Shown: positions 472-52,367 of the stretch, one piece after another
Layout: each line of letters starts with the position of its first letter
How positions within the stretch are numbered: position 1 is the stretch's first letter
From: Lentzea guizhouensis
Lineage (GTDB): Bacteria > Actinomycetota > Actinomycetes > Mycobacteriales > Pseudonocardiaceae
Length of the DNA: 64,000 nucleotides
Reading direction: 5' to 3'
NCBI RefSeq assembly: GCF_001701025.1
Contig: NZ_CP016793.1
Location: 1,426,001 to 1,490,000 of the forward strand
Made by a program: the position numbers and the translations under genes
Notes under the pieces: generated by a model
What the model was told of the DNA's origin: nothing
Database searches by the model: none
What the model saw: the letters and a program-made list of their open reading frames with translations, nothing else

Positions 472-2151
472 GTGCCCGACACACCACTCGTCGATGTGCC
501 GATCGGTGCTCGATCAGACGCGTGGGTGACTGTCGCTCCGCAACGCCGGGTGCTGCTCGTTGCCCACAACCTGACCACTGTCACGAGGCTGCTGGACGTC
601 ATCTGCGTGTTCGACTCCGATCCACGGGTGCAGGTCGTGGCATCCTGGAGCGGAAGTGATCCGTTTCACCGGGATCTCGACCAGGTCTTCACGGATCTCG
701 GCGTCGTGACGGTGCCGTGGGTACAGGCGCTGCACACCAGGTTCGACCTCGCGATCGCGGCCAGCCACCATGGCGGTCTGGCCGATCTGAATTCACCCCT
801 GGTCATCCTGTCCCACGGCATCGGGTATACTAAGAATTCTCCCGGAAACCGGAAACCGGAAACCGGAAACCGGAAACCGGAAACCGGAAACCGGAAACCG
901 GAAACCGGAAACCGGCAGACCTTTGGCCTTTCGCCGCAGTGGCTGCTGGACGACGGCCGGCCGATCGCCGACGCGCTCGTCCTGTCCCATCCCGAGCAGC
1001 TGGACCGTCTGCGTGCGGCGGTGCCCGAGGTCGCTCACACCGCGGTGATCGCGGGTGATCCGTGCTTCGACCGGATCCGCGCCAGCCTCGGGCTCAGGCG
1101 ACGCTACCGCCGTCTGATCGCGGGCGACGAACGCCGCAAGATCGTCGTGGTGTCGTCGACCTGGTCGGCCGGTTCCACATTCGGTCGGCGGCCAGACCTG
1201 TTGCGCCACTTGATGTCGGAGCTGCCGCTCGACTATCAGGTCGTCGGGATCGTGCATCCGAACACGTGGGCCGGTCATGGTCCGTGGCAGATCCGCACGT
1301 GGTTAGCGGACTGCCTTCGCGCCGGGCTCGTGTTGGTGCCTCCCGCCGAGGGGTGGCGCGCGGCGCTGATCGCGGCGGACTGCCTCATCGGGGACATCGG
1401 CGCCACGACCGCGTACGGCAGCGCGATCGATGTGCCGACGCTGCTGGCCGCGTTTCCTGAGGACAACGTCGCCGCCGGGTCTCCGGTCGCGGTGCTCGGG
1501 GATATCGCCGCCCGGCTCGACCCGCGCGAGTCATTGCGTACGCAGATCGACCGTGCGATCGCCCTGCATCGGCCTGGAGCGTACGACCGGGTCACCGAGC
1601 TCGTGACCTCGGTACCGGACGAGTCACCGAAGTTGTTGCGGGCCTTGTTCTACCGCCTGATGAACGTGTCCGAACCGGACGGTGAAGCGCCGTTGTGGCG
1701 CATTCCCACCGCTGGCCTGCCCGGCAGTCGGCCCGTGGTATCGGCGCTGGAGGTACAGGTCGAGCTCGGCCGGTCGTCCGGCAGCGCGGTGGTCACCCAA
1801 TTCCCCGCCGAGCTCCGTTCGCGGCACACCGACCTCACCGTGGGCCATATCGTGTGTCACATCGACCATCCCGGCCGTCGGTTGCTGGCGAGCGCGGACG
1901 TGCTGTACGTCCTCGCACACGAACTGGCCGAGACGGCGGAAGAGTGGATCACGGAGACGTTGCGCGTGCACCAGGGGTGCGGGCTCGCAGCGGTGGTCGA
2001 CGCCGACAGCGCACTCGTCGGCTCGAGGGACGGGCGAGTGTGGCGAGTATCGGCTGCGGATCCGGTGCGGCAGGTGTCGGTGCTGCGTGCCTGGCTCGTC
2101 GCCGGCGAGCGACCCGAAGCCGCCGATGGCGCGATCACGCTGGTCAGCTGA
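472..2151 (+). CDS. GT-B-like repeat protein, copy 1 (heptanucleotide array)
   Basis: About 559 residues. The N-terminal part has a Rossmann-like strand (RRVLLVAHNLTTVTR), then HGIGYTK and directly after it a PETGNRK heptapeptide array (residues about 124-148) encoded by ten CCGGAAA units. The C-terminal half has HPNTW and a block ending IAADCLIGDIGATTAYG, which resembles the acceptor/donor-binding half of CDP-glycerol glycerophosphotransferase-type GT-B enzymes; a transferase role is therefore plausible but unproven. A last domain of about 130 residues is specific to this family. The reading frame is open from 394, but GTG 472 has a purine-rich ribosome site and gives an N-terminus comparable to the two paralogues at 28344 and 50664. 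The 3' end overlaps the convergent STAND gene by 8 bp. Confidence 0.8.
   Translation: MPDTPLVDVPIGARSDAWVTVAPQRRVLLVAHNLTTVTRLLDVICVFDSDPRVQVVASWSGSDPFHRDLDQVFTDLGVVTVPWVQALHTRFDLAIAASHHGGLADLNSPLVILSHGIGYTKNSPGNRKPETGNRKPETGNRKPETGNRQTFGLSPQWLLDDGRPIADALVLSHPEQLDRLRAAVPEVAHTAVIAGDPCFDRIRASLGLRRRYRRLIAGDERRKIVVVSSTWSAGSTFGRRPDLLRHLMSELPLDYQVVGIVHPNTWAGHGPWQIRTWLADCLRAGLVLVPPAEGWRAALIAADCLIGDIGATTAYGSAIDVPTLLAAFPEDNVAAGSPVAVLGDIAARLDPRESLRTQIDRAIALHRPGAYDRVTELVTSVPDESPKLLRALFYRLMNVSEPDGEAPLWRIPTAGLPGSRPVVSALEVQVELGRSSGSAVVTQFPAELRSRHTDLTVGHIVCHIDHPGRRLLASADVLYVLAHELAETAEEWITETLRVHQGCGLAAVVDADSALVGSRDGRVWRVSAADPVRQVSVLRAWLVAGERPEAADGAITLVS
842..915 (+). repeat. (CCGGAAA)10 in-frame heptanucleotide array, copy 1
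   Basis: Ten perfect CCGGAAA units (842-911) followed by a partial CCGG. The array lies inside the coding frame, 16 bp after the start of a conserved TATACTAAG block (TATACT at 826-831). Seven-base units read through as PETGNRK every 21 bases, whatever the frame, and contain no stop on this strand. Both alternative frames downstream of the array stop within about 60 codons, so a change of one or two units would truncate the protein. Confidence 0.97.
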
Positions 2152-50663: not shown

Positions 50664-52367
50664 GTGTTCAACGTGCAACGGCCAGAACTTCTCGACCGGA
50701 CCTCACCGTGGGTGACCCGCCCGGTGGAGCGAACCGTCTTGGCCGTCGTGCACAACGTCACGGCTGCCACCCGGCTTTTCGACGTGCTGCCGATCCTCGC
50801 CGAGGACGACCGGGTGCAGGTGCATTTCACCTGCCCCGAATCATCGCCGTTCCACGGCCAGCTGGCCGAATACTTCAGTGCACGCCAGGTCACACCCATT
50901 CCGTGGCGGCTCGCCGTTGACACGCACTTCCACCTCGCAATCGCGGCCAGTCACGGCGGCCCGCTGCACGAGTTGAAGACACCCCTGATCGTACTGCCAC
51001 ACGGAATGGGATATAATAAGATCCTTGACCGGAAACCGGAAACCGGAAACCGGAAACCGGAAACCGGAAACCGGAAACCGGTTTTCGGTTTGTCGCCGGA
51101 ATGGCTGCTACACGACGGTCAGGTCATCGCGTCGTCACTGGTGCTGTCCCATCCTGAGCAGCTCGACCGGCTGCAGCGCTCCTGCCCCGAGGCCGCCAAT
51201 GTCGCTGTCGTCGCGGGTGATCCCAGCTTCGACCGGATGCTGGCCAGCCTGCCCCTGCGCCACCTGTATCGCGAAGCCCTGGACATCGCCCATTCCCAGC
51301 GCCTGATCGTCATCTCCTCCACGTGGGGACCGGCATCGCTGTACGGCCGGCAGCCAGATCTCGTCGAGCGCCTGAGCGCGGAACTTCCGCTCGACGACTA
51401 CGCGATCGCCATCGCCCTGCACCCGAACACATGGTCCGCCCACTCCCCCTGGCAGATCCGCCGCTGGCTGGAATCCTGCACGCGATCAGGCGTGCGGGTG
51501 TTCCCCGCCGACGAAGGCTGGCGTGCCGGTCTCGTCGCCGCCGATCTCGTCATCGGCGACCACGGCTCGGTGACGTTCTACGCAGCTTCCCTCGGCCGCC
51601 AGATCGCTCTGGCGGAAGCACCACACCACACCGTCGACCCCACCTCTGCTATCGGCAGGTTCCTGACCGCGGCATCCCGGCTCGACTCGTCCCAGCGACT
51701 ACGACCTCAAGTCGAGAAGCTGCTCGCCCACGGCCAGCCGAGCGACATCAGGGAGCTCGCCGAGCTCACGACGTCCGTGCCACTCAAGTCGCACGCGTTG
51801 CTGCGAGCCGAGTTCTACCGCCTGCTCAACTTGCCAGAGCCGAACACGCCGGCGGAAGCCGTCACGCTCCCCTTCCCCGAGATCGACGCCCACACCGCTG
51901 TCCTGCAGTCGGTTCACGTAATACTGGGACACGACAGTGACGTCATGACGGCCACCGTGACGCGGTTCCCCGCCGCTTCAGTCCTGCACGGTCGGCCCCT
52001 CGGCGACGGCGCACATCTCGTGGTCCACACTAACGAGCCGTCGGAGACCGCCTTGCAGCTGGCCGACATCGTGGTGCACGACGATCCCAGCGAAACTACC
52101 GAGTGGCTCGCCCGCACCCTGGCCTCGCTACCTGGCGCCGCCGTGGTCACCAGACCGATCTCGGACACGGCATGGCTCGCCGGTATCCGCGATGGACACC
52201 AGATCCGATTCGACCAAGCCGGCGCGTTCGGACCCGCTTGTGCGTCGATTGCGCTGACCTGGGCCGCCAGCGGGCGGCGGCTGTGCGGCTTCCCGGAACG
52301 CTTCGATCTGATCATCGGCGCCACGCGGCACCACATCACGGCGGCGACCACACGTTGCGACTGCTGA
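50664..52367 (+). CDS. GT-B-like repeat protein, copy 3
   Basis: 567 residues from GTG 50664. Same domain order as the other copies: ERTVLAVVHNVTAATRLFDV, HGMGYNKI, PETGNRK repeats (residues about 122-138), then ISSTWGPASLYGRQPDLVE, LHPNTWSAHSPWQIRRWLES, AADLVIGDHGSVTFYAASLG and the family tail. The VIGDHGSVTFYAA element is the closest of the three to CDP-glycerol-type GT-B enzymes. Divergent from its STAND partner. Followed by 300 bp without a gene. Confidence 0.82.
   Translation: MFNVQRPELLDRTSPWVTRPVERTVLAVVHNVTAATRLFDVLPILAEDDRVQVHFTCPESSPFHGQLAEYFSARQVTPIPWRLAVDTHFHLAIAASHGGPLHELKTPLIVLPHGMGYNKILDRKPETGNRKPETGNRKPVFGLSPEWLLHDGQVIASSLVLSHPEQLDRLQRSCPEAANVAVVAGDPSFDRMLASLPLRHLYREALDIAHSQRLIVISSTWGPASLYGRQPDLVERLSAELPLDDYAIAIALHPNTWSAHSPWQIRRWLESCTRSGVRVFPADEGWRAGLVAADLVIGDHGSVTFYAASLGRQIALAEAPHHTVDPTSAIGRFLTAASRLDSSQRLRPQVEKLLAHGQPSDIRELAELTTSVPLKSHALLRAEFYRLLNLPEPNTPAEAVTLPFPEIDAHTAVLQSVHVILGHDSDVMTATVTRFPAASVLHGRPLGDGAHLVVHTNEPSETALQLADIVVHDDPSETTEWLARTLASLPGAAVVTRPISDTAWLAGIRDGHQIRFDQAGAFGPACASIALTWAASGRRLCGFPERFDLIIGATRHHITAATTRCDC
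51029..51081 (+). repeat. (CCGGAAA)7 in-frame heptanucleotide array, copy 3
   Basis: Seven perfect units (51029-51077) plus CCGG. The conserved leader here reads TATAATAAG (TATAAT at 51012-51017), 17 bp before the array. Shortest of the three arrays. Confidence 0.97.

Follow-up and report, generated by a model that had tools for sequence, protein, structure and literature searches.

Simple sequence repeat (SSR) contingency loci of Campylobacter, Haemophilus and Neisseria are switched by changes in repeat-tract length and often govern surface sugar structures, and phase variation driven by repeats is most familiar from pathogens adapted to a host. Here we describe a candidate for such a locus in actinobacteria, studied in a 64,000-nt stretch of Lentzea guizhouensis DNA (assembly GCF_001701025.1, contig NZ_CP016793.1, positions 1,426,001-1,490,000, forward strand), which is called the window below and to whose positions coordinates refer. 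The locus consists of a gene for a predicted GT-B-fold protein, with an array of short tandem repeats inside its coding sequence, and an adjacent gene for an NB-ARC/TPR protein of the STAND class. Like the SSR contingency loci, the GT-B array is a coding tandem repeat with a non-triplet unit, with natural in-frame and out-of-frame alleles and with relatives that stand whole units apart. Unlike them, it has units of 7, 8 or 10 nt, is found in one gene family and lies mid-protein after a conserved motif; its setting in high-GC actinobacteria, its STAND partner and a TANNNT element in front of it are further differences.

Two other described systems are close to this locus. In actinobacteria, phase variation has been reported for the Pgl system (PMC4365076) and discussed for genes of Mycobacterium tuberculosis. 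In Pgl phage defence of Streptomyces coelicolor, it is attributed to a G tract in pglX (PMC4365076). Pgl is thus also an actinobacterial system with repeat-tract phase variation, but its repeat is a homopolymer in a DNA methyltransferase gene, it comprises four genes and no GT-B or NB-ARC protein is named in the available part of that report (PMC4365076). Kaur et al. (2020) described NTP-dependent conflict systems of multicellular bacteria with variable effectors, among them glycosyltransferases that might modify proteins, peptidoglycan or teichoic acids (PMC7159879). The combination of an NTPase with an effector recalls the present locus, and some homologues of the GT-B protein carry a GT4-conflict domain; the main text of that paper mentions no tandem repeat, phase variation, GT4 or GT-B (PMC7159879).

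Repeat arrays and the reading frame of GT-B genes

As we read it, the locus is quite probably a two-gene module in which the predicted GT-B gene is switched in and out of frame by a slipped-strand repeat array and stands beside a STAND gene whose product would respond to a trigger or keep the GT-B protein in check. If this is true, an entire actinobacterial gene family would share repeat-driven phase variation as a conserved trait. The cells within a colony of an antibiotic producer would then differ in the state of an enzyme linked to STAND, and annotation could take copies that are switched off for broken genes.

Loci were collected in three sets. The first came from a search of GTDB species genomes in which the query was the post-array portion of the GT-B protein (A3, 12 sequences); since the query was limited to this portion, hits need have neither an array nor an intact frame. 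It contains 79 loci, taken from the best 80 of 542 confirmed stretches. The second set, from the family to which the window belongs, was made up of 29 returned loci (the window's own left out) and 40 fetched regions, 69 in all, of which 23 were duplicates and were dropped before counting; the third was returned by a search of the genus Streptomyces and had 30 loci, of which 10 were dropped likewise. Loci without the motif HGxGYxK were left unclassified (3 of 79, 8 of 46 and 3 of 20 in the first, second and third sets, respectively). The 137 distinct loci considered below are those that carry this motif and differ from one another somewhere within 300 nt; among them are the window's own three copies and also relatives that are nearly identical. 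Periods of 5-15 nt were scanned, and loci with fewer than 2.8 exact copies of a unit of that length are referred to as array-less.

An array is present in 109 of the 137 distinct loci, always at one site after HGxGYxK, and the other 28 are array-less. The unit is 7 nt long at 84 of the array-bearing loci, 8 nt at 15 and 10 nt at 10; at none of the 109 is it a multiple of three. Unit sequences vary widely (CCGGAAA, GACACCG, GGAATCGA, GAATCCAGGA and others), and at the protein level repeats with differing units were seen in 68 of the 120 homologues listed (7-residue repeats in 64, 8-residue in 4). Within 976 kb of first-set loci, arrays of at least four copies were found at the HGxGYxK site of 59 loci, and 18 arrays were found elsewhere; 7 of 11 checked among the latter lie within a second copy of the module.

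Out-of-frame genes are almost confined to array-bearing loci. In the first set, 34 loci with arrays are in frame and 28 out of frame (14 in each of the other phases), as compared to 14 and 0 array-less loci (Fisher p 0.0013). The new loci of the second set gave 13 in and 12 out with arrays and 13 in and 0 out without, and those of the third set 12 in and 4 out with arrays and a single array-less locus, which is in frame. When the distinct loci are taken together, the gene is out of frame at 46 of 109 with an array and at 1 of 28 without. The two shifted phases are represented by 29 and 17 of these 46 loci, whose N-terminal halves are open for at least 100 codons and C-terminal halves for at least 398, with one exception (306). 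In the three window copies, the next stop after a one-unit shift would be met 7-74 codons on.

Close relatives differ by whole units. Alleles of Lentzea albidocapillata (L095, in frame) and its subsp. violacea (L110, out of frame) are 96.5% identical over 1801 bp, and the single gap between them is one 7-nt unit. The in-frame and out-of-frame alleles L091 and L088 (95.7%) are separated by one 10-nt unit at the array and a 9-nt gap in the gene, the remaining gaps being near or beyond the gene end; L047 and copy A of L061 (85.6%), again in and out of frame, differ by one 7-nt unit and otherwise by gaps that are multiples of three. Three further in/out pairs are one unit apart (L141/L142, 97.2%; L124/L125, 94.4%; L168/L169, 96.1%), as are L175 and L176, which are 99.5% identical. 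Three units separate L145 from L146 (99.6% identical, frame kept) and likewise L099 from L102, which are in the same phase. The latter two belong to a group of four Saccharopolyspora loci (L099, L102, L104 and L103) that share one out-of-frame phase; three of them have 10-nt units in 10.6, 7.6 and 13.6 copies, and the fourth has an 8-nt unit.

The ratio of nonsynonymous to synonymous substitution rates (dN/dS) after the array was calculated with a purpose-written script. Across six in/out pairs it ranged from 0.13 to 0.47, and across three pairs with both members out of frame from 0.15 to 0.22. Judged by these ratios, purifying selection persists in out-of-frame alleles, and the low values together with the openness of both gene halves argue against reading such alleles as pseudogenes. 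Because the units are non-triplet, the out-of-frame alleles are open, pairs of alleles differ by one unit and purifying selection persists, we consider it very probable that the GT-B array constitutes a contingency locus subject to phase variation.

Pairing of GT-B and STAND genes

Genes at the first-set loci were called with a simple purpose-written caller, by which an NB-ARC/TPR gene was found at 76 of the 79 loci and the STAND gene of L100, found later, was missed. With L100 added, a STAND gene lies within 1 kb of the GT-B stop codon at 75 of 79 loci; 74 of the pairs are tail-to-tail and one is on the same strand (L063). In 64 of the 74 convergent pairs, the distance is between -77 and +92 nt, and 38 pairs overlap. 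Among the second-set regions, the partner was found in 35 of 40, all convergent; since 9 of the 40 repeat first-set loci, this corresponds to 26 of 31 new ones. No third gene forms a cluster present at more than 8 first-set loci. The GT-B/STAND pair is, therefore, a real module, nearly constant where the GT-B family occurs. A preliminary description of the window had argued from conserved pairing to a functional link, which the positions of the genes strongly support, and had named as the contrary outcome that the two families would be mostly apart across genomes, which is not so. It had also pointed to differing orientation of the pairs; this holds inside the window, but across genomes the tail-to-tail arrangement is by far the commonest, and copy 3 of the window is exceptional.

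Four first-set loci have no partner within 1 kb (L044, L067, L089 and L092), and three of them are also array-less (hypergeometric p 0.016, resting on four loci). The 10-Mb genome of L. guizhouensis itself gave 80 NB-ARC/TPR matches, some of which are parts of a single gene, so that a chance match within 1 kb downstream is estimated at about 1%. The GT-B paralogues at genome positions 4085443, 4021013 and 1418225 adjoin NB-ARC/TPR matches, the one at 5425518 has no adjoining match and the one at 1374918 is a fragment. In the corresponding region (G000:C1:1374573-1375373), fragments of a STAND C-terminus (- strand) and a GT-B C-terminus (+ strand) are adjacent and look like a decayed module.

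Relatives of the post-array part, with or without an array, were found in 118 of the 200 genomes sampled from the window's family (E up to 1e-30) and in 105 of the 246 sampled from the genus Streptomyces (E up to 1e-50; the genus was identified through named loci of identical sequence). Several families of multicellular actinobacteria share the module, which is tail-to-tail in most cases.

The three modules of the window

The claim of the preliminary description that the window holds three GT-B genes with arrays, each paired with an NB-ARC/TPR gene, was confirmed. In module 1, the GT-B gene (P0001; 472..2151, + strand; the open reading frame begins at 394, and 472 is the likely start) contains a CCGGAAA array at 842..915 (+; 10.6 copies, in frame), preceded at 826..831 (+) by TATACT, a -10-like TANNNT element inside the GYTK codons. 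Its STAND partner (P0004; 2144..4087, - strand) is tail-to-tail with it and overlaps it by 8 nt. Module 2 is similarly arranged: the GT-B gene (P0002; 28344..30122, +) has a TATACT element at 28707..28712 (+) before an array at 28721..28810 (+; 12.9 copies, in frame), and a STAND-like gene (P0005; 30055..32088, -), whose product has a degenerate Walker A motif, is tail-to-tail with a 68-nt overlap. In module 3, the STAND gene (P0006; 48474..50564, -) is divergent (head-to-head) from the GT-B gene (P0003; 50664..52367, +), whose product was the one used for the structure model; here, the element is TATAAT (51012..51017, +) and the array occupies 51028..51081 (+; 7.7 copies, in frame). P0002 and P0003 are 43 and 44% identical to P0001, respectively, and the arrays are perfect and lie at the same aligned place in all three. 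Runs of at least three consecutive CCGGAAA units occur only at these three arrays in the whole 9,997,872-base genome.

A nucleotide element upstream of the array

At 104 of 109 array-bearing and 2 of 28 array-less distinct loci, the invariant Lys of HGxGYxK is preceded by a codon with T in third position. In the 104 loci this codon is AAT (63), ACT (37), AGT (3) or GCT (1); downstream of the array in these genes, AAT and ACT make up 8.3% and 2.9% of their codon sets, respectively. Since the base is fixed though the amino acid varies, a constraint on DNA or RNA is indicated. Codon rarity at the element is -3.24 (mean -0.02, sd 0.21, over 150 later codons), and it lies within a belt of rarer codons between approximately codons -13 and +8. 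When only loci assigned to Streptomyces are compared, the T-ending codon is present at 47 of 47 with arrays and 0 of 7 without; for this contrast, genera named in first-set records were used, all other records, including "Actinobacteria bacterium OK074", were set to Streptomyces, and third-set loci were counted as Streptomyces. Shared ancestry inflates the p-values for the element, an effect that the within-genus contrast reduces and does not remove.

The resulting motif TANNNT ends 8-12 nt before the array at 96 of 109 loci. TANNNT is the -10 motif at 80.4% of S. coelicolor transcription start sites (PMC4895711); no clear -35 element was found upstream of it. Through the conserved T, the -1 frame also has a TAA immediately upstream of the array. 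The array-linked element is the most surprising part of the locus; with it, the means by which cells maintain an unstable repeat become open to direct test. The preliminary description had seen neither this element nor the absence of units that are multiples of three, nor the one-unit and frame differences.

Proteins of the module

The GT-B protein has a predicted GT-B fold like that of TagF. It is distant in sequence from TagF/PF04464 and from UDP-GlcNAc 2-epimerases, and differs from both by the array loop, which has a low predicted local distance difference test (pLDDT) score, and by an extra C-terminal domain that has no clear match in the PDB. PF04464 (CDP-glycerol glycerophosphotransferase) gave no match in P0001-P0003 and weak ones in 4 of 85 family members (best E 0.0015). 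H113 and H253 of P0003, candidate catalytic histidines, are invariant in the 85 members. The GT4-conflict domain PF20706 was not found in P0001-P0003; among the 120 homologues listed, 10 are of about 1000 aa with GT4 domains, and both of the two that were checked match PF20706. Searches of PADLOC-DB at E up to 0.1 gave no system-specific match; the one model hit, by P0004 and P0006, was a generic TPR one.

P0004 and P0006 match NB-ARC and TPR_12 above Pfam cut-offs. P0005 gave no NB-ARC match in Pfam at E up to 1, and its Walker A Lys is replaced; an alignment shows it to be related. In the partners at 30055-32088, L076, L083 and L094, Walker A is not recognisable by pattern, so some STAND partners may not hydrolyse ATP. 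All three window partners match the AfsR and HaaT models over their NB-ARC and TPR parts, but with scores far below the curated cut-offs, and they leave roughly 285 positions at the start of the AfsR model unmatched, which we take to be its SARP (Streptomyces antibiotic regulatory protein) part. Streptomyces partners (e.g. L050, L062 and L090) have in common an N-terminal hydrophobic, glycine-rich stretch of the SAVGTVASGALSGAGGE type, which could be a membrane-acting segment.

Proposed mechanism and alternative explanations

The mechanism that we propose begins with slipped-strand gain or loss of a unit, by which the array would shift the GT-B reading frame. One unit more or less would truncate the protein soon after the array, and a single clone would come to contain both ON and OFF cells. 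The protein would be an enzyme resembling TagF or the epimerases, with a nucleotide-activated substrate, and, should its constant presence be costly or recognisable, random switching would hedge against phage or rivals. The STAND partner is predicted to sense a trigger or to restrain the GT-B protein, and the -10-like element might start transcription into the array or raise its slippage. The role in conflict is one that we infer; the suggestion in the preliminary description of an NTPase-controlled effector or sensor is a compatible, if conjectural, reading. A more far-reaching version, possible but on balance doubtful, is an inherited hypermutation cassette: TANNNT would fire into the 7-, 8- or 10-nt array in the active-site loop of the GT-B protein and keep it prone to slippage, a STAND-guarded conflict enzyme would be switched cell by cell, and element and array would arise and vanish together.

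Several alternatives were considered. In one of them, the loop tolerates insertions, arrays drift as functionless microsatellites and the out-of-frame alleles are pseudogenes. The low pLDDT of the loop fits this, as do the intact array-less members (28 of 137), which show that the fold does not depend on an array; however, one would then expect triplet-multiple units, the tolerable ones, of which there are 0 in 109, and would expect neither the concentration of arrays at the HGxGYxK site, nor an accompanying nucleotide element, nor out-of-frame alleles with both halves open and with purifying selection even where both members of a pair are shifted. We regard neutral drift as quite unlikely. 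If, instead, only the length of a hydrophilic peptide loop mattered and frame loss were a by-product, close pairs three units apart in the same frame (L145/L146, 99.6% identical; L099/L102) would be readily understood, but a triplet-multiple unit would serve as well without frame loss and none is seen, which makes this explanation unlikely.

The element just upstream of the array, and the selection kept on the C-terminal half in out-of-frame alleles, could also mean that this half is made alone from an internal promoter (TANNNT), that N and C domains are two chains and that the frame between them is irrelevant. The first start codon in the C-terminal frame does recur at +7 (9 loci), +2 (5) and -1 (4) relative to the FGLS codon. 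Yet over the 47 out-of-frame loci it is scattered from -134 to +75 codons, with one locus having none within +100, a Shine-Dalgarno-like stretch is present at only 1 of the 47, and there is no clear -35, so a split gene is also improbable. Finally, ribosomes might shift frame within the array, its copy number tuning output instead of switching it; the TAA that the conserved T places in the -1 frame just before the array, and the single out-of-frame phase retained by three Saccharopolyspora orthologues, would suit such recoding. Against it, unit sequences and lengths differ widely, no slippery site shared by them was seen, and both out-of-frame phases occur (29 and 17 of 46); recoding thus appears very improbable indeed.

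A number of observations weigh against the frame-switched module itself. L099, L102 and L104 are in one out-of-frame phase with copy numbers three apart, a pattern that random switching does not predict and that argues against purely random phase. In the first set, 34 of 62 arrays are in frame, above the one third expected if phase were random (p 0.0006), which indicates that selection or sampling favours the ON state. The sole shifted array-less locus is L149, which lies in the flank of L071 and had therefore been removed from the second set as duplicated; L149 has the T element and could be an array that has contracted. Some assemblies are draft, where long arrays can be miscounted; the arrays of the six one-unit pairs are only 38-59 bp long, and out-of-frame alleles are also present in single-contig genomes (L049, L164, L168 and L188). 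The loci represent one genome per species, and no within-clone switching was seen in them. In the phylum as a whole the GT-B family is rare, with relatives in 4 of 296 sampled genomes, that of L. guizhouensis included. P0001-P0003 fall in no Pfam glycosyltransferase family, the enzyme activity is a prediction, and the part assigned to the STAND partner is deduced from adjacency.

Neighbouring genes

Small proteins with an N-terminal hydrophobic stretch are encoded next to two of the modules, at 4196..4708 (+), as an optional neighbour of module 1, and at 27826..28287 (-), divergent from GT-B copy 2; relatives of the latter occur at 7 of 79 first-set loci. Just before module 2, there is a 131-bp tandem duplication (27309-27579; 2.1 copies, 98% matches). 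A UDPGT/EryCIII-like glycosyltransferase gene (4594-5760, -) adjoins module 1, and its relatives at 6 other loci are on the same strand as most STAND genes. The open reading frames 20904-21875 (-), 26285-26656 (+) and 55026-55406 (+) group with one S-adenosylmethionine-dependent methyltransferase-like protein, presumably of the ARMYDYWLGGKD type, and this cluster is also represented near 3 of the 79 first-set loci.

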